A stretch of DNA of 64,000 nucleotides from Styela clava (lineage: Eukaryota > Chordata > Ascidiacea > Stolidobranchia > Styelidae). The notes under the pieces were generated by a model. It was not told the origin of the DNA. It worked only from the letters and a program-made list of their open reading frames with translations, and ran no database searches. The stretch lies in contig NC_135258.1 of NCBI RefSeq assembly GCF_964204865.1, forward strand, positions 16,049,001-16,113,000, in the 5' to 3' direction. Shown one piece after another: positions 22,201 to 56,681 of the stretch (position 1 is the stretch's first letter; each line of letters opens with the position of its first letter). The translations under genes were made by a program, and so were the position numbers.

Positions 22201-25200
22201 AACTATTCTCCAGGACAGGGTTTCTCAAACTATTAGTGTTATTGAGCCTGTGAAGGGTTGATTATTATTTATGAATCCCCACAATGAATTTATAAAATTA
22301 TCTATTGGAACTTATAGATGATGTCATATTTGAATTACCGCCTTGTTGCCACATTCCGATGCTACCAATGCCAAATTTTTTATTAATGCGGTATTGCTTC
22401 TTTGGACAGTTACAAAATTAGCCAAGTCGGTATATTATTAATAAGTATATGAATAGCTCGCAGAGCCCCTAGGTTTCTCTCACGGAGCCCTGGGGCTCTG
22501 TATGAAGCACTTTGAGTACCTATGCTTCAAGTCTAGGACAAATACAAATGTTGATAATCAGAAAATATTGTGCTGAAAAGCAACATCACGATTGTACAAC
22601 ACTGTACTTCCAAGTCAACATATTATTCTATTTCTCTTTATAAGATTTGGTATATAACAAGATATGAATACAGAGTAGGTACTATACACAAAAAAAACTA
22701 TTTTATTTAAAACAACCCTATACAGTATCTCATGCAGCAAACAAGGTGGGAGGGACATGGTTTGATCTTGAATTTGAACTTAAAATAATATATAATCAAA
22801 ATGAAATAATTTTGATTGACAATTTTGATGACAGAATGATTCTGGAATATGAAACTGTGAATAAGGTATGAGCATGTTGTTAGAGTGAAATTAAATCTGC
22901 TTTTTCAGAAATTCCTACATCAACATAGAATAATTTGACATGTTATGAACTTTTTTTAATCTGAAAAAGCACCATGGCAGCCATGTTTCAAATTTAAAAC
23001 AAAAATACTACACTACAATTGCAACCATGATGATTCCATATCCGGTCATTCAATATCTAATCAATATTATGACATCACATCATAGAGCAAGTATTACATA
23101 CAATAACATGACATTATCCCGGATAACTTGACTATGTAACGCTACATATGTTATCAGTTACAATAGGATGATACTATCGTATACAATTAAAAAAAATATT
23201 GTCTATTCAGCAACCTTATAAAATGCATGCATGACCTCACATTTTGATGGTTAGCTTAATTATCGGAATGAATAACACTAAATTGTATAGAAAGTGAAAA
23301 AACCTAATAATGAATGTACGTCATTCCCTACTGTATAATTTTCCCACAGATTACTATTACCAACATATTCATCGATTTAACAAAAAAATTTCGTTGAGCT
23401 AATTATAAATATTCAGTTAAATAAAACAAATTTTAGCTATTATCCAAAACTAAGAAAAATGATCAGAAAAGACAAGTGAAATTATTTAATTTTCAAAGTG
23501 ATTTTTAGCATTTCATCACATTTGAATAATATGTTCATACTCATTTACTCCGAACAAGACATACAGCCAAATAATAAACACATACAACCCAATAATAAAC
23601 ACATAAGCCAAATAATAAACACATACAGCCCAATAATAAACACATACAGTCACCATGACAAAAAGAACAAACATAGATACAATTTACTATGCATCACAAT
23701 ATGGATTACCAAATAAAATTGGACTGGGATTTTCTAATATGCGATGCTACCCGAGTACAACAGTTACATAGTAGCACTGAATGCTTCATGTTGGGAGTGT
23801 TTATTTTCATGTATTCTTTCCTTTAATAGTACTGAAAATTATATATTGTTATTTCGAATGTGAATAAGCAATAAATACCATATGTTGTGTTATCCCTTTA
23901 TTAACAACATAAACAACCCAGCCAGTCAAAAATTTGAGATCTATAAGCACATGATGACTAGATGATTGTCATGTATGAAACCCTCGATTCAAAATGTATT
24001 TTTGGTATTGCCTACTTTGTTACATATCGGGCATCATGGAATCAATATTTATGTGATTGGCAGCATCATTACTGTAATATTATAATGTAAACATTCTGGC
24101 AAGACAGGATAATTCGCAACAAATCATGGAAAAATCCAATACTTCCTATTTGTAACCTGTTCAGTGGAACGTTAAGCCTAACAATATGAATAGTGTGGTA
24201 ATGATATGGCATATGATTTTTCAATATTCGAATTTGTGAATGTATTTTCTACAAAGTTGATATTGAGTTGCCATGAAGTTTTCAGTTATTTTTAACAGTA
24301 GGCCATAAGTCACCAGCGTCATAAAATCATTATTCAAATTTGACAAGGTTAATAATTGGACATGATCAATTTGAGCCATTCCACTTATTCAAACTTTTTT
24401 TATACGATTACAGCAATGTTCAAGCAAAAAATAAAAACCATTTTAAATCAGAATAGAATGGATTTTAGATGGCGAATTGAGAATCACAATGTTTAGATTC
24501 AAAATATAAATTTGATCACTGACCGAGTAACAAAAACTAAACTTACATGCAAATAAAATGACACATAAAATATCAATAACGTTATGACAACAGCGAATGA
24601 ACGATACATTAGGTCACTAAAATAATGTAATCAGTAAACCATACTTGATTAAGCATAAATTTACATACCTTTGTCCGATGCTTCAAAGATTTTGTTGTAT
24701 GAACAATATCATTGAAAGCTTTAACCCATGATTCCATTTCTTGTTGATTATCAGCCTGAAATATTTTGATATAGATTCTAGAAATTATTTCCGCCTCCAT
24801 TGGCTGTGCATGATTGAGTGAATACTTCAGATGGATGACCAAAATGAATGAAATAACCATGAACTTTGAATTAATATCTAACATATATGAATCGATAGAT
24901 ACCGTATTTTCCGGCGAATAAGACGATTTTCTAGACCTAAATTTTTGGCCTGATTTAGGGGGGGTCGTCTTATTGGGCGAATATGGTAATATTGATTTTT
25001 TTCGATGTCAGTTTATTCTGCAATTAGGACCATGAAATATCTTGCGAGCGATAATATGCCCTCCCCGACAGTTTAGTTTGATGAATAGGCGTTCTCGCTT
25101 GGTAAATCTGGAATATAAACGCTTTTTAACTATTGTATTTGAAGTTTCCACATTTGCGTGTGCATCACGAGCAGAGTATAAGTCGCCAAGATGGCGTCGC

Positions 25201-41810: not shown

Positions 41811-44800
41811 TTATTTAGGACGAACCTCGTTTTCACACTTTGGGCACTGTCCCTTCCATTGTTCTTGCTCTTTGCCCAGCTTTGAAATTTCTGTTGGTGT
41901 TTTGCATTTTAGACATATGTGTTTTTCCAGGACAGATACTTGGTACGCTTCTGCCCCGTGATTAGGATTAAATCCGACGTAAAACTCTACTCTTTGTTTT
42001 TGTTTACTGTCCGAACCGCTGAAGCCATAACGCTGAGGATTAAAGAACAAAGTGATTTCCGGCCTGTGACCCCCGTCTAAAACAATATGACCATACCATA
42101 TTTTGCAGGTTGAGATTCTTCCTTTACATACTTTCAGGCGGGCGGCTTTTTCCTTCTTCCAAAATGTCCCATCCCACTCACCCAGTAAATTACGATGAAT
42201 AATATTTCGTATTGATTGCGTACTTTCGTGATTAGCAAGCCACTCGGCTGTTCTATCCATTAATGGAAGAGGGATAGAGCAGTCCTTCATCTTTTCCTTG
42301 AGTCGACACGATATTTCACTGTAAGCATTAGCGACTTCCCCACGAAGACCATTTATGGCGAGCAACGTCGTTAAAACGTAGTTGTAGAATGTTGCTAAAG
42401 ATCCCCGTTCTTTTTTAGAATTCCAATTCTCCACTCTGGAATTAACCTGAGCAAGAGCGTAATCGGATTCATTGAATAACGGATGACGTATGGCTTGCAA
42501 CCATTCAATCATGTAGTTTGATATTAGGTGATGCTCCATGTCTCTCTGCTGCGCGTCAGTGAATATTCCTTCATAAAGCTGAATGAGTTGCTTCAAATAC
42601 TGTAATTTATCCACATCTTCATAAATTTGAAATCTGGACGAAACTCCCTTTTTCTCTGTCAAATGCATCTTCAATATTGCAACGTGACATTTCTTTGAAT
42701 GTACGGTCTTGTCATTGCCTACCCATCGTCTCAATGCCATTTCGGCATTCTTGAAAAATGTATTAAAATTGTTTATACAAAAATCCAACTCGTCTTGCGG
42801 AATATTATGCTCTTCGGCATGATACATGCATTGTACCAACAGCTGATCACAGTGGCTAAAGGACTCCAAGGTAAAATTCGCAAGCAAACAAAACGGCTCT
42901 TCTTCACGCTGCAAATTTGCAATATTGCCACTCGAGAGCGCGTGAGCAAATTCGGCCAACAGTAAACGAACTTTAATCTCGCCAATGTAGACGTAAGTTG
43001 GATTGCATCCCTTCTGGTAATGATTTTTACTCGCTTGAAAATGTTTAACTGCTTTCTCTGCTTTTTCTAAAACAGTTTTGACCGACTGCTTGGTAAATTT
43101 GTGCTCCGAAATTTCGTTTTTCACCTGTACATTCAAATAAAATCCGTACATGCTATGAATACGATGTAGGACTGGGTCACCGCTATTGGTATGTCCATCT
43201 GACTTGTTCTTCTTTTCCTCATTTCGAACTGTAAAAGCTTTTAGAAAACATTCTTCCGCTTTTTCAAACTGTTTTGTTATGCCGTAAAACCTACCAAGAT
43301 GAGCATGGAATTCTGCGTTCGCGGGAAAACATTCTACTAGATTCTCCAATATGCATCTCTTGTGATCGTCGGTTGGCGTATCTTTAATGAGTCTTGAATA
43401 TTTCGACTTGCTTCCAAATTCGTCATTTTCGCCTGCGTCTTTGTAATTCCGCTTTATCAATATTGAGGTCAGAATTTCCTCGATATGAGTAGGGAGATCA
43501 CTTGACCACGTCGATATTAGATTTTCTTTAACGAATCGAATGAAATTTACAGCGATCTGACAAAGACCGTGACGTGCATCATGCGACAGCGTTCTTTCCT
43601 TGGAATCGTATTCAGGGGACTGTCGTTTTACTAGGACTTGTTCTAAGATCTCTTTTGCAACAATGTAATAGGTAATCCTCCATTCCCCGTCACTATTTTC
43701 AATTACCAATTTTTTCGCTTGGTGGGGTAGGTCATCTAGAGTAACCGCTTGCTCGTTTGATTTACAGAAGAGGTTTGCAAATATTTTGCATGGTAAGCCA
43801 CAATGACCATAATAATGAGCAAGAGACAGATAAGTGAGAATTCGATGCCAGTTTTCTAATGCAGTTGTAGGATGTATTTGAAGGTTTCCGTGGACATAGC
43901 TTTTAACGCCTCGATATTCCGAATCATACGCTGTCAGACCGTATTCGAACATGCAGTGGCTTTTGTTTTCTCCGACGTCATCAGTCAACTTTTTTAGTAA
44001 AACTCTGGCATCTGGCTTTACAGTTGAGAATATATTATGCAAGGATTGTGCTTCTGTTTTGGACACGTGTTCCGGAAGAAAAATTATGTTTTTTTTCTTT
44101 TTGGTATAATTTTTAAAAGACGAATAAAAGCGTTGAACGTGTATAATAACCACCTTCTCGTAGCGACAATATTCAAGCAGGGTTTTTACATCCTGTAAGC
44201 TGTTACCATCAACTAGAAGTACTGCAGGCAGATGGGTTTCGATACGAATGAAAGTCAGTCGGTTTTTCACCTCATCAATTGATATTTCTAAAGAAAAGAG
44301 TTCCAAGCATGGTGCTTCTTTTCTTAACTCCCACAGAACTCGCCTTGCAAAAGTTGTACCGCCACCTCCCGGAGGATGAAAAATTGTTATTATGCCCGAT
44401 TTGCCAGTTTCAATGTATTGCTTCTTTACCAACTTAACGGTATCTTGTAAAATATCCCTTTCAGCATCATATTTTCCTGTCCCTATAATTTCCCATCCTA
44501 ATTTGCCACCTTTGAGAAAATCCTCCCCTTCCAAATCCACATTATTTGTCTCCGAACCAGTTTCGTTCGATGCAAGAACGACGAAACAAACACTGAGCCA
44601 TTTAAAGTTTTTGTCTGTTAAACGAAAACTGCTTTTTTCGCCTTTGATCTGTGAGAACTGAGGCAATGTTTTACTTTCAAATGTAGGCGTATCATCATTA
44701 TCGCTGTTTTTGATCCATTGACAAATGTAATTCAGGGGAATCACAAGCAAATTTTTCTCCAACTTTAGTCGTTTAACCATGTGACCAAATCCAGAATGCT

Positions 44801-47800
44801 TATGCGGCTTCGATCGTACACATATTATGCACGGAAAACTGTTGAGGTGACTTTTAAAGTGATGCTTCATGCATCCCAGAAAATTGTCAAGAGAGTCGTC
44901 GAAATTATTATTGGATGGATACCAAAGTACGATAATTTTTGGAATTTTCCTCATTACGCAGTATTTTACCATCGAGTCACAATGTTCAAAAACAAGTTTA
45001 TCTGAAATATCAGTGCCGGATCTAAACTCAACATCGTCACTATCGCAATAACCATTTATAAAAACCCAGTCCGTCGTCTTATCAACAGGAGGGACTACTT
45101 TATCTTTGGTGTCAGTTGTTGTGTAATATCTCCTATTCCTCAAGTAATCTTCAACATTTGACAGAAGGCCAAAGACTCGTGATTTTGGATCAAAGTCGAA
45201 CACTCTTATCCAGGGAATTTTCACCAAACACTGCAGATCTGGGTCATTTTCTCTAACCGGACCTATCACCAATATGTAAGCGTGCTTTGGGTCGTGTTGA
45301 CAATCGGGGAACCCAATACTGGTCAGTTCCTTTGCACACGCTCCAAAAAGAGAAGCGTCGATTGTTTCCGCTGGGTTCATTTCATTTTCGTCCTCCGGAA
45401 TATGAATATTAGGCTCACCTATTTGTTGGTGTGAAACAGGAATGTCATCATGGCCAGTGAATGCTAAAAAATAATATATATTAGGCTCTATAGTTATCCA
45501 AAACGTTACAAGGAAGTTATAGAGTTAAATATTACGCCAGAAACAATAAAAAAACATAAAACTAGATATCTTCAGACAAGATTTACAAGAATGCTTTGCA
45601 ACAACAAGATGTAGGTAAAAAATTTACATAATGTATATATTTACTGACTCTGACTTGTTGATAATTCTTTTGCCAAGTTTTCTTCGAGAAAATTGAATAT
45701 AATCCGGCAAAATTCTTCAGAACTCATTCCCTTTTCAACGATTCTCAAAGGAAGATCAGCTATCTCGGGATGGACTGTCGTTATCTTGCGGGCTATGAGA
45801 AGGTTTCTTTGTTGTTCACATTGCTGCTTCAGTAATTCCATAAAACATTCCAAATTGTTGCTTTGAAAAGGACCCGTCAGTATGAAAATTCTGAAAAAAT
45901 GAATGTCAATTTTAAAAATGTTTGTTTATGGCATCACAAAATCTGGTATAGAGCACTCACTGATCACGTGACTTTGTTTATGCCGCCATTTTGTACGGCA
46001 AAAACGTCCAGACCAGGCCGCCCGCTCCTGTCAGTTGCAAATCGCATTACGCGTTTCTGCTCCGCTTGACTGTTAAAAATGGTTATTTTGTGTTGTGCCG
46101 TTGGATGTACGTATCGAAAACGAAAACGAAAGGTATCTTCAGTTATATTGCATAGTTTTCCTGAAAATCCGAAAGCCGCGCAAGCTGGATATCATCTATT
46201 AGGAGGAAGGGTTGGCGTCCCAGCCATCTCTCTCATGTTTGCGGACAGTACTTCGGTGGTGGTGAGTGATCAATATCCATTTCTTTAAATATTCATAAGC
46301 TCCGTCATTTTAATGGAAAACATATGACAAACTACCGTTATTAATAACGGCACATTATCACTCACCACCAACGAAGTGCTGCCCGCAAGCACTAGAGAGA
46401 TGGCTGGGACACCAACCCTTCCTTCCAATAGATAAATATATTTTTCTTTGTCTATACGTACAGCGAACAGCACAACACGAAATAACCATTTTTAACAATC
46501 AAGCAAAACGGAAACGGATAATACGACATGCAAGTGACATGAGAGGGCGACCCGGTCTGAACGTTTTGTCACAGTTATGAAAGATGTAATCCTGGCGTGC
46601 TCGCCATTGTCATAGTTTCAAAGATGTTGCTACTGTGGTTGTAGATGAATCAGAAGACTCAGATTTCGGATTTGTGGCTTATTATACGGCAACTTCACAC
46701 TTAAACGCATATAACAGCCAAACAAAAAAGCGCAGGAGCCGGAGAAAGAGTGCGAAAGACATAGTTGTTCTCTCACGTGTAGTAGGTGTTCGGAGTCCAG
46801 ATCCGACAAAACAGCATGGAATAGGGGTTAACATAACAGTTTATAAACTTAAAAATATATGTACACACAATATAAACGCGGACGCTATGGTCCGCGACAG
46901 TTTTTGCTGTCCAAAATGGCGACATAAACGAAGTCACATGATAATTTAAGGTCCTTTATACAGGGGTTCTCAAACTTTTGGTGGTATAGAGCTCGGGAAG
47001 AGGTTGACTATTATTTACGGAGGCCCACAATACATTTATAAAAACAATTCTATTGGAACTGGATAATGCCATATTTGAATTATCACGTTGTTACCACATT
47101 TCGACGCTACGTGAGTCAAATTTCATTAATGCTGCTTTTGATTCTTTGGAGAGTTACAAAATTAGCTAAGTCAGTATTTTGATAAGTATAGCTCGTGGAG
47201 CCCCTGTCTTTCTCACGGGGAGTCCTGTGGCTCCGTACGTAGCACTTTGAGAACCTATTCTTTAGCTAGGAGCAGGAGTGGCCAACTCGCGGGCCGCATG
47301 CGGCTCTTTAACCGGTTTCATGCGGCTCTTTTCTCCTTGATTATTTTAAGGAAAAAATAAGTTGCAATCTATGATTCATCATTTTCAATTACACATATTA
47401 TGATTCATCGTGCATTCTTATTTCACGTCGGAGATTCATTTTAACATCATGCAGTCGGATATTATTACGTCACAAATAAAATCTTTGTTGTGATATGCAT
47501 TTACTGCACTACAACGGCTGCCGTAATCATGACTTCGTAGTTCGGCGAGAAACGCAGAATTTACCATTTGGGTGGGGTAGATGAAATGCAGATAAAACGT
47601 TACTCGTTCAATTCTGAGACGGACAGTTTGAAATTTCCTCTAGTCTCAGATGAGACTGCAACTGAGTTGAAGATGATCGATCTTTATGAGGAAGACCAAC
47701 TGAAATGTGCTTCAAATTAAAGAAAGGTACCATTGAGATTGAGTTATGGAAAAGCATGACGTATGTACTTCACAACACATCGTAGATTAAGTTCATATCA

Positions 47801-50800
47801 TTGCGGTGTACCGAGTGGTGGGATTCAAACTTTTAAATGCGGGTTATCACGGAAATATTTTGTTTTGTGAATTTGATACTATATATTTTTTTTACACATG
47901 AAGTCGACTTCTTTAGTCTCCTTATGAATTTTTAAAATCCGATTTAACAAAAATCAGCCTCAGTTCGGAAACGGCCTTTGATATTGTAGTACTGAAAACT
48001 CGTTACAGAACTTGTATTCACAGCATATCCACGAGTAGAGTTTTGACCCATGTTTTCTGTATTTAATTCTGTTTTGCCATCGCGTTGTCAAACGGAAATG
48101 CATATTTGAATACATAAGAAGGGAAGACTGATATATTTAGGCATTTCATTTTTACCAGCCATAAAATCAGTCTATTCAATTAAAGAGTCCAGCTGCACAC
48201 TTACACAAATGTATTTCTGTAACGTTTCGTCCGACCAGAGTCAAACTTCCTCAGACAAGCAGTTTACAACAATGGCAAGAAATAAATTTGCTAAATGAAT
48301 TTGAAATATGGTATTTGTATATTTCTTTCTTACAATCGTTGTCGAGTCCAGAGTTGTCGAGTTACAGAAATACATTTGTGTTAGTGTGCAGCTGGACTCT
48401 TTAATTGAATAGACTGATTTTATGGCTGGTAAAAATGAAATGCCTAAATAATATCAGTCTTCCCTTCTTATGTATTCAAATATGCATTTCCGCATATGAA
48501 TAGAATAGTCATATTTATTCCAGCTACAGTATCCTTGCAGTATACGCATACAGATCCACTAGCATAAAGGCATAGAGAAAAGATAGGAAGTTAGTCTCGC
48601 GCAACCTAACTCAAATTTATAAAATCAGTTTCGTTAAATATCAGCTTACCATACGTCCCGGTTTAGCCGGGACAGTCCCGTTTTCGACAAGTTGTCCCGG
48701 TCGGTAGACTCAAATGTCCCGGCTAGGCAGCACGGTTGTCATGAGTAAAAATTCATATTCAATATTATTAAATTTTTTTTTTTAACGGAGATACTGATTT
48801 GTGACACACTTCGCTAGTTCAGAGAGAAAGAAATTGATTTATTGTTATGTCACAATTGTTTTATGTTAATGCGTCACCTGAAGCTAACTGCAAGGAGGAA
48901 AGGTACACTGTTTTTTCTATTAGTCATAGCGGTCGTTAAGATGCCAACGATCATCACCAAAGCAGGAAGCACAAAACATCAATTAAGACATCATCGGCTT
49001 GACTGACCACCTTCTTTGAGATAACAAATTCGGATAATTCTTTGTCTTTCAGTCAGGGAGGCGACATTTGCCTATTCATGGCCAAAGTTTTGACTACATG
49101 TTTAAATTCATTTCAATTTTTTTTGAGCCTGAATTTGCATTGCTCTGCTGCTATCCTCTGAACTTAATGATGATTTACTTTGCCGACATTGTCGTTTAAA
49201 TAGGCACCTCCATAAAATAGGATGACATAATAATGGACTTTGCGATTTCTGTAATGTTCCAGAGACAGTAGAACATTTTCTAATGAACTGTCGTGCATAT
49301 AGAAATGAAAGACGCATACTAAAGATGAAATGCCACCATTATGGCATTGATTTTCAACTCAAAGCTATCTTACGCGACCCTAGCATTTTCCCTGCTCTTT
49401 TTGATTTTGTGAAATCTGCCAAGAGAGTACTATAGGCTTATACAAAGTTTGAATTAAATTGTATGGCGCAAAAGACTTAAATTGTTTAAAGCGCCATATA
49501 CTTTCATACCACACACACACACACTTCCAATAAGTTTCGTATCAGTAACCATCGATGCATCAAACAGAAAAGATATAAAGAGTGTTGTTCGTTATTTTTT
49601 ACCTGATGTTGGTGTGAAGATTTAACTATTAGAATTCTAATCTCCACCCGGGGAAATCACCAGAACTTTTACTGAATACTTGCTGTCTGTTCTTGATCAA
49701 AATCTTTTATAAGGTAAAGTTGTTGGGTTCTGTGCAGATAACTGCAACACAAACTTTCGAGGCGTAAAAAGACATGGAACAAATAATGCTTTTTTCGAAA
49801 CTAAAGGAAATCTAAGAAGAAATATAACTAGAATATCGGTATCGATCGAGGTTAGGCGATCCCACAAAACAGTGGTCTTACTCCATAGTGACACCGTGTG
49901 TCCCATCACTAATTAATTAATAACTCGTTAATTATATGACATAATCCATACAAAATCAATAGGCTTCTGATCCGAGCTATGATAGATAAATATTCTGGCA
50001 TCTTGGTGCACATACTACGGGAGTACCCTAATATCCTTGGAACGCTCCGGCGAAATCGACGTAACAGTATTTAAAAAGAATGTTTGTGATTTTTATGAAA
50101 AATGTCTATCGTATATAGGGCTTGCCAGGCCCCACATATGGACAAATTTGAAGGGTGAAATAAACTGGACTGGAGTATGTGTCATGTGTTGTCTAGCCGG
50201 ACACATAGGGCATATATATAAGAGGCTTTATATATTATTCAGCAAAGCATTTATTACGGATGACTTCTTAGTCAACAGACACAGTCAGATTAACATACAA
50301 CTGTAGCAGCCTAACACAAACACAGAATACTAAACACACGGTATGTCCACAAGAACATGACTAGCGTGAAGGTCATCTTCAGTGACCTTTGACCTAACAT
50401 GATCACTTATCATGACAGTAGGTAGTAATGCAAAATTGATTAATGATATGTTCGGTAGTCAGGTGTTGAATAGCGATGCACTTCACGCACTCAGTACGAA
50501 TACGCGTTGATAAAGAGATATTTATCTGAGCCCAGTTTAAATGAAATTTGGCTTACTTTGCGTGGTGAAGATGAGTGGGCAGAAATATTGAACGTATTTT
50601 GCAACAGAAATATTAGCATTTCGAAGTTGCAGTAACTTATTGAATTTGTTTGCCGAAAACATCGGCATCTGTTGAACGGATTTTCTCCATTGTTAAAAAA
50701 TTTTGGTCCGAAAGCAGGGGCAGAATGCTAGAAGAAAATATGCAAGCCCTCGTACCCTGCAAAATTAATGGTGATGTCTCATGTTATCAGTTTTATGACA

Positions 50801-53800
50801 AAATCAAATCGAGACAGGAATCTTTGGGGAGGGTTCTATCAGAGGACAAATACTTTTGGTCTAAATAAAAATTACAAACTAGACGTTTGTGTTTTTCTAA
50901 TTTAAAGGCCAGTATAGATTTACAGTTGTATCTATCCTCGAAGGCATGGTAGAAGTTTTAATTTTACTAAAACTGGCAATCGACCGAATGCTTGCCAAAT
51001 CCCACCGTCCTGTTTTTTTGTTTCAGATTTATCCAGAAGCCTAGAAATATTTGAATACTGGAGTGTAGAGAAATGATGAGCAGCTGCAAATTAGAAGTAA
51101 CGAGATGTCCAATGGAGATGTTATGGAATAGATAGTGATTGAACTTGGATAAAACGTTTAAAACCTTGCAGCGTCGAAAAACAGTAAAACATAATAGGAG
51201 TTGCAGCTTGAACAGCTGGGCGGTATAAATTGGTAAATTTATCGAGTGAGTGATAACAAGTAAACGTGGAATTCCAGCAATGGTTTGGTGTATTGATGAG
51301 GCAGCCCTATTATTTTATATTCCTTTTAATTTACTGTGCAACAAGACAGATCGTCACTGCAAATTCTGCAGCAACCACCAACTACACATGGACTAAGCAT
51401 TGGGATAGGATTACCACATCACCATATATATATATATATATATACAGTAGTGTTTATGCTAATTTCAATATATCCTATGTACCGACGGCGACAATGTAAA
51501 AAAATGACTGATTACAGAATAAGAAGAGCAGGATGCGTTATTTCGTTTGAAACTATGTTATAGCACAAAGATCGAGGACATACCAATGAGCGGTCCCTTT
51601 CTTAGAGTTTCAAAATTTCGATCGTCTTAAACGAAGACAACTTTATGTAAACGCGGATTATCACGACATTCCATGAACAAGTTCGAGCGAAACCCCATAA
51701 TCCGATCACTGCAAGTGCAGTTTTGAGCACCTTGTGGCGTCTGAGGCTGCCGCAAAACCATGGCAGGATTTCCAAACCATAGCCGCTATGGTCACACCAT
51801 GGTGGCTGACTTTTCAGCTGCCACAAACAAATGGCGTGAGGCGGAGTACCATGGCAACAAATTGAAAACCACGGCGGGTAATATTGTGCTGCTACAAACT
51901 AAGACATGTATACGCTCAGATGGCAGGACTGCGTCTGCAGTTGACACACTTTGAACATTTCCTTAAGGATACAGTTTTGATGTGGTTAGATTTCAGGTTC
52001 GTGTATGTATAATTTCACATGATAAACTCAAATCTGGTACATGACTTTATGAATATACCGGTAATAGCGCTATAAAATCATGGCGAGAGACGCCACGGTT
52101 CGTTCGTGGCAGGAGTCGCCATGAAGTGGTAAGAAGTGCGCTCAATGCAATCCGACCAGAACTACCAAAAAATCACATGTAAACACATTCCCCATACGAA
52201 CCATTATTCAGAATATTTTCTTTCTGCCGCTGAGAGGTATTGAATTTTCTGAAAAGAATACCTGTAGGTAAATTTTCGGACAGTATTGAGTGTTTCGGTT
52301 ACGTCGTCCAATTTTCCGTTGCATGATAATAGTTGAACGTCTTTGCATTTTTCGAGCAATTTTTGTTTTGCCTTTTCTGCTTGGGGTAGAACTTTCTCGT
52401 CAAAGATCAATATAATGCTGTCGTACTGTGCAAAAGCACATTCTGAAAAATAGACATATGACGAGTACATATTATTGCTTCACAAAAATACCTTAATACG
52501 TCGTTAACAGTGTTCCCTCTAAAGCAGTGATTCTCAAACTAGGGTTTGAGAGCCGCATGCGGCTCTCGACAACCTTTCCTGCGGCTCTTGTTAATGGTTT
52601 GAAAATTAATTACTTTCAAAGAAAATTTTTTATTGAAAACTAGCCATTGACTTGAAATTAAAATGCAGAAGTCTATTAGTCAGTCGAATGGATTCCCCCG
52701 TGTTTATTTGCGTAGTGTTGACTAATCTAGAACAGTGGTTTCCAACCGCCGGTCCGCGGACCGGCACCGGTCCGCGAAGCTTTTTTGCCGGTCCGCGAGA
52801 GATTTCGTCCTTTTGTTTTTCTGCCGTCTCAATCGATTTACCGATATCGAAAAGATGAAGTTGCGTCAATTTATTATACGCAATTTCTCTTCCGCCGTCA
52901 TATTTCTGTTTGATAAGTGCGGGCCGGCGACGTCTTGGCGCCGTGTAATCACACTTTTCGCTTTCCCGGTTCAGATTCATCGCGAAAGCGCTCCGTCAAA
53001 TCTCGCAAGAATCCAAAACCTGAAAATCAGCTTGTGTGCTTTTTTCTTGATTAATAAGACGAAGTTACGTTGGTTAATTACGCAATTTCACTTCCGCCAT
53101 CATATTGCTGTTTAACAAGTTCGATATTAATGTTCTGGCGACGTCTTGGCGCCGAGTAATCACACTTTTCGCTTTTTCGGTTACGATTCATCGCGAAAGC
53201 GCTCCGTCAAATCTCGCACGATTCAGAAAGCTGAAAATCAGCATGTGTGCTTTTCCCGATCAGCATGCTTTTCTTGATTAATATAACCATCCAAGTAAAA
53301 GGTTATGAATATTTATTTGTTCAAACCCGAAAACTGTCAAGAACGGTATAATATTCCAGAGCTTCACCTTGACACCCAGCGAAACAGGAACTTGTTGCGA
53401 CCATGAAGGTGGCCACAATACGCACAGTAAAAGCACTGGCCGCTGAGATCTTTTCCGAGTGATGCACAACAGGATTTTGAGCCTGGTGCAACTTAGCAAC
53501 GATTTTATCATTGTAATATTCATTCTTTTTTTTTTTTTGGGGGGGGGGGGGCGTGAATCAACTGCAGAAGAATTGATATGATGAACCCGATAAACCTCTT
53601 CTTTACAGTCTAGATTTATAAAGGAATCACTGTCACAATACTTGAGCTATCTTGATAACGAATATCCATCGCAGGCATCGCTAAGTTATCGAGCAATCAA
53701 ACTGTTGTTCGAATTTTCAACCTATTACTTCTCGCTTTAATTAATTAAACCGAAGCAAATAAATCAACTGTGAGCCGCTGCAGAGCTAAGTGTTACAAAA

Positions 53801-56681
53801 CGCTTTTTTGATGCCCCGTTTGCAATCATGTATTGGAAACAAAACAGAAGCAAAATTCTCACTTGAAATAATTATGTTTGTACATGATATGGCATGTATA
53901 TGTTTTTTATGTGAGGTATGTGCCTTTTTTACGCATAATGGGTGCCCAGAACTGCATTTTATTACGCAAATATATGTTTTTATTTTATATTCCATCCATT
54001 TCAATTTTTGGTCGGCACATTATTTGATAGTTTTTCCTCATGTAAAAATGCTTTTAAGTGTACATTTTTCTTCTAAAAGCATAGTGATTGCTTGACATTA
54101 CGTAAGTATATGTTATTATTTTCTGTTCAACACATTTCAATTTTTGCCGGTCCGCGAGTACATATTATTTAATTTTACCGGTCCGCCAGGGTAGAAAGGT
54201 TGGGAACCACTGATCTAGAATATGTAATAGTGACTCAACAGTAAGCGTTTTCGCGACCACTCGGACACTTTTCACTTGGAAAGATTTTAGACATGACTGT
54301 AATCATTGGCTTGCTTTCGTGGATTTTCAGTTTTTGTCGCATTTCCGAATGTTATGTATAAATCAAATAACTCAATGATTGTTTTAGTATTTAGTATACC
54401 CTTGCGTTCACATCAGCGACAGCTGTTGAATACATTATGGGCTGATTTCAAAACCAAATTAATTTTATTCTGAGTTTTATCCCCTGCCTTGGATTTAACC
54501 TTCCTTATTACCGCTTGGAGATTAACCGTGCCTGTTTAAAGTGAACAGTAACCGAGATGCAGATATTTATTGAAATGATAATTGAGTTTCTCATGCTTTT
54601 CCATGGTGTTCGTGTTATTTTATTATTAGATAGATAAACTTAGCAAATTTACGATTGCGTGAATCCTGAATGTTAATAAGAAACAGCGATCAAATAAATT
54701 GGCAATAAAGGCCTTTGGGCCTAATAGAGGGTCGGACGCCAATTATGACTAATTCCTTCAAGTTTTAACGTTATTTCCCCAAAAACAACACCCCGATGGT
54801 TATTGTAGATAAAATACTTACTGAGTGATGCTCAATTTTCTCTACGGAATTTACAAATTCAGCACTTCACTTAATGGTTTTGATTATGTCATGCCTTAAG
54901 GCTTAATTATTACTGCCCAAATGCTTCAAAATTCAACAATTGTAATCATTTTCGTTGATAATAGACGCAACAATTCGTGAACAAGTCAGCGTGCATTGTT
55001 ACAACGAAATGCACGATTGATTTTACGTTCTACAACTTTTAATGAGTGCTTTTCATACAAGTAACTCATACCAGCTTTTGGAAAAACTTTTGGTCATTTT
55101 AAATCCATGCTATTTATATAACTAGAGTTTTCTAACGACCCAAAATCGCCCTTTTCACATTGAAACGCCGAAAAGTCATTTTAACATTTAATTTTAATCA
55201 ACTTTATGTTCGGTAATGCAAGAAATGGCAAATGACATGTCACCAAGCATGCGGAGTTTAAAATCTGGGAAATTTATTTTAAATACCCAATTTGGTTTGA
55301 CGTTTCTAAATTTACGGAACGGTCGGTACGTTTTTTTTTTGCAAAATATGGAATTGAAACGATACGTTAAGTGCAAAGATAGCATATAACACCATAACCC
55401 AAAGACAACGACTTTTCAAATTTGTCGTTTTTTTCTGATAGCGAGCGCCGTTGGAAAATCTCACACAATCCACGATTGAGTTGAGACGCGCGAATTCGGT
55501 GTTCAAGCAGAGCGATTCAGGTTACGTGGTACCAAATATTCGAATAGTAAAATATCATTCGAATATTTGCCCAGCCCTAGTTGTTACGTGTGTTGTTGTT
55601 ACGATGACTTGATATTTTAAATACGCGCTTAAGGTTTGTTGCTATTTTACCTTGCGTTATTTGTGTGCGGCTCTTCATAACTTTGAGGTGTGAAATGCGG
55701 CTCTGGGACTGAAAAAGGTCGAGAACCACTGCTCTAAAGTGTGCGCGTGTGCGCGCGCCCACGGCTTTCAGAGGCTGCGCACAGACGTATTTCGATGTAA
55801 TGTAACAATGTTCTCGGTTGGCAGGTTGAGAAAGTTTGTTGTTGGCTCACCTATTACCCGGCTAGAACGCCAAAATTTCTTCATAGTTTTTTGCACAAAT
55901 ATTAGTCATTTCCAAAAAAATGCGCACACAACAAAATTTCTGCGCACACATACTACAAAAAATTAGAGGGAACATTGGTCGTTAATATAATGTTTCAGGG
56001 CTTAACAAATAACCACTGAGCGATTGGTAGTAATCCAACAATTATGTATCACAATTGATAGAGGAGAGTTGGATGTATGAATGGAATACAATGTTTGGAA
56101 GAACAAATTGTAGTATGTTCCCAATATATATTTATATATATATATATATATACTTTGTTAGCTGTAGCCATACAAGACATCTTTTAAAATTTTATTTTAA
56201 GTTTCAATCTCCCAGTGTTCACTTGTTTTAGAATATAGTGTTGAAAGTACGATGGTATCGTTGACATGAAATGATAAAAATGTCAATAGAAAGTTTAACG
56301 ATTGGCAGCTTTCACTCGTTTAAACGGAAAGTCTTGTACACATTATAATGGCGCGTAGAAGTGAAATGATGGTTTTATATACATATATATGTATATATAC
56401 GAAAATTACATACGTGATCCTACAGGCAAGTCATTTGATTTGAATTTATCAACTAGTTCATTGTACATTTGTACAGATAATGGTTTTCTCTGCCTTCCTT
56501 CCCACTTCTTACACATTTGAATCTTTTGCTCTTTTATGTCATTGCTGTAATTGTATTCTATATCATCCAAGATTTGTTCATTCAGCTGCAACGCCGTTCG
56601 AGCAAATTGTTTCCAATCTTTGTTCCGTATAATTTCGAAAGAGGCATAATATGCTCGGCTCAGGTCAGCTTGATGTGACAT
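41811..56681 (-). CDS. death domain - TIR-like - SAMD9-type NTPase/TPR/OB fusion protein
   Basis: Four exons chain in phase on the minus strand: 56681-56414, 52442-52262, 45890-45655, 45463-41811; 4338 nt, 1445 aa. Exon 1 (ATG 56681) is a death domain (~10-80: NKDWKQFARTALQLNEQILD, W60). Exons 2-3 (~91-228) look like a TIR alpha/beta domain: YDSIILIFDE, an amphipathic helix, then IFILTGPFQSNNLECFMELL, matching the TIR strand-D/helix region with C165-x-x-E168 at the usual NADase glutamate. Exon 4 is SAMD9-like: Sir2-like/Rossmann part (VFINGY, IIVLWYP), P-loop HPPGGGGTTF (~591-600, Lys replaced by Thr as in SAMD9), Walker B PAVLLVDG (~641-648), winged-helix and TPR parts (NLVECFPANAEFHAHLGRFY), OB-like fold, and a C-terminal Cys4 ribbon (C1412, C1415, C1435, C1438). 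SAM and AlbA_2 nuclease regions are absent. Vertebrate SAMD9/SAMD9L restrict poxviruses and repress translation; an innate-immune role is inferred. The exon 3 donor (ACAA|gtcaga) is the weakest junction; the large exon alone is certain. Confidence 0.75.
45958..46940. mobile_element. foldback element with two convergent THAP-domain remnants
   Basis: Block gatcacgtgactttgtttat at 45961 recurs inverted at about 46912-46937. Inside, an ATG at 46079 opens MVILCCAVGCTYRKRKRKVS and a FHxFP-like LHSFPENP, the start of a THAP zinc finger; after a frameshift WRPSHLSHVCGQYF matches its later part. An inverted copy begins at about 46491 on the minus strand (MVISCCAVRCTYRQRK, then GWCPSHLSSACGQHF). THAP domains occur in P-element-type transposases and domesticated genes. 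Both copies are broken, so this is a dead element. Confidence 0.6.
46961..47257. mobile_element. hAT-like MITE, family 1 (copy 2)
   Basis: It begins caggggttctcaaactttt and ends near cactttgagaacc, so the termini are inverted. Internally it shares gccatatttgaattatc, acaaaattagctaagtcag and gtggagcccctgtctttctc with 22216-22530. It is non-coding. Confidence 0.65.
47273..47345. mobile_element. left end of a hAT element
   Basis: It starts caggagtggccaactcgcgg with the gccgcatgcggctc motif seen in many hAT families and also in the middle nested element at 52525. The right end was not identified; the transposase fragment at 50635-50868 may or may not belong to it. Confidence 0.45.
48090..48497. 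repeat. long near-perfect inverted repeat (130-bp arms)
   Basis: The left arm, 48090-48224, begins cggaaatgcatatttgaata and ends aatgtatttctgtaac. The right arm, about 48365-48497, is its reverse complement apart from one or two changes. The spacer is about 140 bp and contains gtttcgtccgaccagagtc and cctcagacaagcagtttaca; the same spacer text recurs in diverged form at 61820-61910. The pair could form a hairpin or cruciform. Confidence 0.85.
49130..49435 (+). pseudogene. non-LTR retrotransposon C-terminal fragment
   Basis: In one frame the stretch reads LNDDLLCRHCRLNRHLHKIG, a stop, then CDFCNVPETVEHFLMNCRAY and RNERRILKMKCHHYGIDF, ending at a stop at about 49433. C-x2-C ... ETVEHFLxxC is the typical zinc-knuckle-like tail found after the RT/RNase H region of many LINEs. 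It is truncated and interrupted. Confidence 0.55.
50635..50868 (+). pseudogene. hAT transposase C-terminal dimerisation fragment
   Basis: The reading LIEFVCPKTSASVERIFSIV, then KKFWSESRGRMLEENMQALV, ends at TAA 50866-50868. ASVERIFS is the hAT-C dimerisation signature (S-x-E-R-x-F-S). The rest of the transposase upstream is missing or interrupted by stops. Confidence 0.65.
52525..55731. mobile_element. middle hAT element (about 1.72 kb without its insertion)
   Basis: The ends are cagtgattctcaaac and the inverted cagtggttctcgacc, flanked by perfect ctctaaag duplications (52517-52524 and 55732-55739), which are part of the outer element's own terminus. Subterminal gccgcatgcggctctcg resembles other hAT families. 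No intact transposase frame was seen. Confidence 0.85.
52733..54212. mobile_element. inner hAT element (1480 bp)
   Basis: The ends are cagtggtttccaacc and the inverted cagtggttcccaacc (14 of 15 identical), flanked by perfect atctagaa duplications (52725-52732 and 54213-54220). Subterminal gccggtccgcg blocks occur at both ends. It contains a direct duplication of about 200 bp (52846-53042 and 53055-53250, sharing gcgacgtcttggcgccg and gcgaaagcgctccgtcaaat) and a t(14)g(12)-type run near 53526-53551. No transposase was recognised. Confidence 0.85.

Follow-up and report, generated by a model that had tools for sequence, protein, structure and literature searches.

The protein encoded on the minus strand at positions 41811–56681 of a 64,000-nt stretch of Styela clava contig NC_135258.1 (the whole stretch is referred to here as the window) appears, on balance, to be a STAND protein of the SAMD9 family in which the AlbA_2 tRNase module is replaced by two other domains, one a death domain and the other likely TIR-derived. 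The prediction is that it recruits death- and TIR-domain partners rather than cutting tRNA itself. Human SAMD9 and SAMD9L have a SAM domain and an AlbA_2 tRNase at the front, where the Styela protein has death and likely TIR domains; in human SAMD9 the AlbA_2 region is described as the effector, acting as a tRNA endonuclease (PMC13245274).

The gene has four exons (Table 1), which join in frame and run to a single stop at 41811, and a splice-site check found a GT donor and an AG acceptor at all three introns. This structure had been proposed in an earlier note on the same DNA, and it agrees with a Styela clava protein in the public databases (LOC120338761 isoform X1, here P0001; 1446 aa), to which the product is 97% identical over 100% in a database search. 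One boundary was changed: exon 3, previously ended at 45655, was extended to 45649 (donor GTCAGT) from the alignment with P0001. Both donors preserve the frame, giving products of 1447 aa (45649) and 1445 aa (45655). When P0001 was searched against the window by tblastn, as two queries (residues 1–300 and 301–1446), all strong matches were on these four exons, and the remaining ones in the window were few and short, with E values of 0.027 or worse. Given the P0001 match and the tblastn placement, a chance joining of exons can be dismissed, and the gene is taken as real, its model being confirmed at the sequence level by agreement with an independent public protein. No second set of front exons was found within the window by tblastn or blastn. 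Elsewhere in the window, an open frame at 24612–25007 (minus strand) has a weak match to a PH domain (E=0.0016, below cut-off) and is perhaps an exon of another gene.

Table 1. Features of the Styela clava gene, in window coordinates; residues are those of the 1447-aa product.
Feature	Position	Strand	Content	Basis
Exon 1	56414..56681	-	Start codon and death domain; domain core 56469-56624 (residues 20-71)	GT donor
Exon 2	52262..52442	-	Likely TIR-like domain, first part, from residue 95 (nt 52428)	AG/GT sites, in frame, P0001 match
Exon 3	45649..45890	-	Likely TIR-like domain, second part, to about residue 227 (nt 45659)	P0001 alignment and donor check
Exon 4	41811..45463	-	Linker, SIR2-like region, P-loop NTPase, TPR, OB-like region, C-terminal zinc-ribbon-like motif, stop	
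Lysine-less P-loop	44352..44381	-	FHPPGGGGTT, residues 592-601	Sequence; SAMD9-family hallmark per PMC5445408
Best-scoring TPR	43233..43325	-	Residues 944-974	Pfam TPR_8 E=0.0045, below curated cut-off
Zinc-ribbon-like motif	41835..41915	-	CxxC-x19-CxxC, residues 1414-1440, after OB region	Sequence
Foldback, intron 2	48093..48492		About 400 bases	Arms of 42 nt (100% complementarity) and 90 nt (99%)
Further inverted repeat	46001..46567			80%

The death domain assignment is a solid one by profile comparison. Pfam Death (PF00531) matches with E=1e-6 on the whole protein and 7.9e-7 on exon 1 alone, its 29.2 bits lying above the curated cut-off of 22.6, and the closest solved structure is that of FADD (E=0.0016). 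Further downstream, residues 61–433 of the exon 4 protein match residues 257–659 of 37id_A, the best of the solved SAMD9 chains matched, with E=1.7e-13, across the SIR2-like region and the NTPase, and the exon 4 product is 33–34% identical to proteins from Clavelina and amphioxus. The hallmark of the SAMD9 family is described as a P-loop in which GGT/S replaces GKT/S, with a histidine upstream (PMC5445408), and the Styela motif has both the glycine in place of lysine and the upstream histidine. On the strength of the chain match and the P-loop, the SAMD9 core, like the death domain on exon 1, was correctly recognized in the earlier note, and membership of the product in the family can be considered confirmed as far as sequence comparison goes. 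The order SIR2-like region, lysine-less P-loop, TPR, OB is that of vertebrate SAMD9 and SAMD9L, the TPR and OB regions being putative in the Styela protein. The TPR matches in the Styela protein are weak and below cut-off, and its OB region is placed only by alignment with homologues. Like the Styela protein with its zinc-ribbon-like motif, eight of the 14 homologues retrieved have a CxxC..CxxC motif near the C-terminus, those of amphioxus and the two from Clavelina among them. P0004–P0007, P0013, and P0014 lack one; the vertebrate-like relative P0007 differs from the Styela protein in this respect.

There is no room in the product for an AlbA_2 domain, because the linker from the TIR-like segment to the SIR2-like region is only about 60 residues long (228–290), as it also is in P0001, whereas the AlbA_2 Pfam profile has 118 positions. 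The absence of AlbA_2, as put forward earlier, is concluded from this short linker and not from tblastn: full-length Clavelina and amphioxus proteins searched against the window for an AlbA_2 exon matched the core, but they also missed the TIR-like exons, so the search was too weak for the purpose. Its only match to the Clavelina AlbA_2 region covers 22 residues outside the gene (16927–16853, E=9.9). AlbA_2 has been described as ancestral in the SAMD9 family, lost in some members, and not required by the family definition (PMC5445408), so its absence is no ground for excluding the Styela protein.

The segment encoded by exons 2 and 3 (residues 95–227) was labelled TIR-like in the earlier note. 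Taken alone, it matches no TIR model: Pfam scans of the Styela front (259 aa) assigned residues 95–227 to no significant family, the P0001 version of the segment matched no TIR model either, and the front domain of a further relative, P0013, had no Pfam match at all. Scanning the front domains in isolation with the PADLOC and NCBIfam models also returned no TIR, the Styela segment giving weak unrelated matches (E=0.018 and 0.012). The label is instead supported through homology with the N-terminal domain of a SAMD9-like protein from Clavelina lepadiformis (LOC143465358, P0002). The Styela segment aligns with this domain at z=3.85 (none of 1000 shuffles as good) and with the P0013 front domain at z=3.67 (one of 1000); as a yardstick, the accepted TIRs of MyD88 and SARM1 reach only z=1.6 against each other with the same scoring (68 of 1000). 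A local test gave z=2.47 for the Clavelina domain (14 of 500), and in single-sequence hhalign comparisons with the Styela query the Clavelina (E=0.028) and P0013 (E=0.043) domains came out on top, with AlbA_2 at E=0.18 and all probabilities below 2%. In the Styela–Clavelina alignment the first half of the domain is gappy, and most of the match comes from the second. The Clavelina domain alone, in turn, matches Pfam TIR_2 with E=0.0073 over profile positions 2–65 of 122, scoring 17.2 bits, below the cut-off of 28; in a scan of the full-length protein the match weakens to E=0.12. Because the Styela–Clavelina match is clear and the Clavelina–TIR match weak, residues 95–227 are called likely TIR-derived, by homology, and are not filed as a TIR. 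Direct comparisons with known TIRs add little. The Styela segment has no significant similarity to MyD88 (z=1.08) or SARM1 (z=−0.39). The Clavelina domain scores z=2.01 with SARM1, 1.71 with MyD88, and 1.81 with its own protein's AlbA_2, and the P0013 domain scores 2.49 with the Clavelina AlbA_2 and 2.16 with SARM1; since TIR and AlbA_2 scores are so alike for these two domains, z values near 2 are regarded as noise, uninformative in either direction.

It is less probable, though it deserves serious consideration, that the front alpha/beta domain is a Rossmann-like fold other than TIR, conserved in this lineage, with signalling left to the death domain alone. Besides the lack of any TIR model match for Styela and P0013, sequence profiles of the domain matched no TIR structure in the PDB, their best matches being designed alpha/beta proteins (E=0.026). 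Structure prediction, which the earlier note had proposed as a check for a TIR fold, was run with AlphaFold and gave two models of the front domain, each with a pLDDT of 42 and built from alignments of only three and two rows. Foldseek and VIA-align searches with the second of these low-confidence models (pLDDT 42, two-row alignment) returned PII-like and ferredoxin-like folds and no TIR fold among the best 50 matches of each program. With alignments of two to three rows and a pLDDT of 42, the models and the fold searches are treated as uninformative, and the PII- and ferredoxin-like matches are not counted as evidence for those folds. What speaks against a non-TIR fold is the chain of matches given above, from the Styela segment to the Clavelina domain and from there to the first half of the TIR_2 profile.

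That the segment is instead a degenerate AlbA_2, and the layout an ordinary Death–AlbA_2–SAMD9 one, is improbable. A whole-protein MAFFT alignment does put part of the segment over AlbA_2, and the amphioxus AlbA_2 comparator reaches z=1.67. Across the four comparators, however (P0004, above the Pfam cut-off; Clavelina, weak at E=0.018; amphioxus and P0014, assigned by alignment only), z ranged from −0.82 to 1.67 and no comparison was significant, the best being equalled by 52 of 1000 shuffles; in the local test, between 221 and 366 of 500 shuffles did as well. Furthermore, Clavelina has both domains in series, and it is the first of them that the Styela segment matches.

Very unlikely, too, is the suggestion in the earlier note of an NADase front end, in which the TIR-like domain would be an active enzyme depleting NAD on activation in the manner of SARM1 or of the TIR effectors of bacteria. 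It would follow the general logic of TIR effectors (PMC8195603), but with no TIR model matched by the Styela segment and no BB-loop proline/glycine motif seen in it by eye, it is not supported; the catalytic glutamate cannot be placed because there is no reliable alignment with SARM1, and the Clavelina and P0013 relatives have no obvious one, judging by eye only. On these sequence features, the NADase reading is disfavoured. Least probable of all is that exons 1–3 form a separate gene, which both models would have wrongly fused to exon 4. The public entry does resemble an automatic isoform model, but the frame and splice sites fit, that independent model uses the same four exons, and the Clavelina and P0013 proteins carry front domains similar to this one.

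Database searches for relatives returned 14 distinct proteins, and a search with the front half of the Clavelina protein returned only itself. The Clavelina protein resembles that of Styela in its likely N-terminal TIR and C-terminal zinc-ribbon-like motif, with 34% identity, but it keeps an AlbA_2 domain (weakly recognisable, at the E value given above) between the likely TIR and the core, and has no death domain by Pfam. P0013, a 1291-aa protein from a 4.5-kb assembled contig, has a long branch and may be incomplete. As in the Styela protein, its SIR2-like region is immediately preceded by a front domain, similar to that of Styela, and there is no AlbA_2; unlike the Styela protein, P0013 has neither a death domain nor the zinc-ribbon-like motif. 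For the front of P0003, a LOTUS reading found no confirmation in a Pfam scan and is set aside.

In a ten-row tree made from the core only, without front domains, the three carriers of the TIR-like domain (Styela, P0013, and Clavelina) group together (81/85), and within this group P0013 is sister to Styela (92/92). The long-branched P0004 and P0007 and the window's own row, a near-copy of P0001, were left out of this tree. In a 13-row tree that includes the two long branches, Styela and P0013 stayed together (89/92), but Clavelina did not group with the other two carriers, at an unresolved node. P0005 and P0006 are in neither tree. The presence of TIR-like and AlbA_2 domains in a single Clavelina protein suggests that gain of the TIR came before loss of the nuclease. 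The simplest history would then be a single gain of the TIR, loss of AlbA_2 before the split between Styela and P0013, and a later gain of the death domain or its loss in P0013.

The position before the SIR2-like region also varies among bacterial relatives. The fronts of 17 bacterial SAMD9-like loci were inspected by eye, and four of them were scanned with Pfam. The four scanned fronts carry four different modules: AlbA_2 (L010, E=2.4e-14), TCAD9 (L013, E=3.4e-16), a calcineurin-like phosphoesterase (Metallophos; L014, E=8.2e-11), and a nucleoside phosphorylase (PNP_UDP_1; L015, E=2.7e-20), the last two in the N-terminal part of the matched open frame, in the AlbA_2 slot. An AlbA_2 signature was seen by eye at the front of 11 of the 17; in L009 and L016 the open frames are shorter than the match, and L012 has no front domain. 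No TIR was seen by eye in the N-terminal stretches of the 17 loci (up to 200 residues per locus, more for five). The four modules indicate that this position is changeable within the family, and another such exchange in tunicates is therefore plausible. The likeness to prokaryotic TIR-STAND defence proteins drawn in the earlier note holds in this one respect.

The introns had been described as filled with transposons, and intron 2 does contain near-perfect long inverted repeats (Table 1), which by their sequence look like foldback elements. The front of the product changes much faster than the core, apparently within one species: of 46 amino-acid differences from P0001 in the protein alignment (one of them a single-residue gap), 37 are in residues 1–300, 14 of these in residues 1–90, and just nine in the other 1147 residues, with none in residues 901–1250. 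Such a concentration would fit diversifying selection on a signalling front; recombination between two old alleles would account for it as well.

MyD88 has a death domain followed by a TIR domain and no STAND core. The Styela product has the same order of death and likely TIR-derived domains, but departs from the MyD88 family layout in continuing into a STAND core, and its TIR-like segment is not significantly similar to that of MyD88. Among invertebrates, SAMD9 proteins with domains of the death superfamily have already been described (Mekhedov 2017, PMC5445408), with a death domain before the core, as here, and with AlbA_2 lost in some members. A word search of the main text of that paper found no mention of TIR, tunicates, Ciona, ascidians, or Branchiostoma. 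Bacterial Avs5 shares SIR2, STAND, and repeat domains with the Styela protein, and structural similarity between it and human SAMD9 has been reported, but as described there it has no death or TIR front end (PMC12931631). No description of a TIR fused to SAMD9 was found in the literature searched, by titles and abstract openings and with subscription journals mostly outside its coverage; SAMD9 and TIR are mentioned together in PMC8195618, where the two are unrelated. The earlier reading of the layout needs one correction. In the sources as consulted, a death-superfamily front on an invertebrate SAMD9 protein is known, and the TIR front is apparently new within the literature searched.

We infer that the shared front domain is a TIR with a non-enzymatic, scaffolding role, and the following mechanism is proposed on that basis. 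In the off-state, the C-terminal half (TPR, OB, and zinc-ribbon) would restrain the protein. Sensing would open it and allow the STAND module to oligomerise; this would bring the death and TIR-like domains together in a cluster that could nucleate an adaptor complex with MyD88- or FADD-like partners, leading to an NF-kB- or caspase-type output. The site before the SIR2-like region would be an exchangeable effector slot, occupied by a tRNase in vertebrates, by various enzymes in bacteria, and by an adaptor cassette in this tunicate lineage. According to a review, SAMD9 and SAMD9L depart from other eukaryotic STAND proteins, which recruit adaptors, in having an effector of their own (PMC13245274). 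A broader and more tentative proposal, which seems possible but falls somewhat short of probable, is that in one tunicate lineage an animal SAMD9 swapped its built-in tRNase for a Death–TIR adaptor cassette, with the Clavelina form (TIR and AlbA_2) as a living intermediate; the slot would then be swappable in animals, just as among the bacterial relatives, and a STAND protein with an intrinsic effector would have reverted to recruiting adaptors.

SAMD9 and SAMD9L restrict poxviruses, and their overactive forms cause human disease. If the Styela protein is as proposed, it would be a natural relative that has adaptor domains and no effector, separating sensing from killing, and would reveal what functions remain to a SAMD9 sensor and SIR2-like region once the tRNase is gone. 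In the sister group of the vertebrates, it would also connect SAMD9 sensing with death/TIR signalling.
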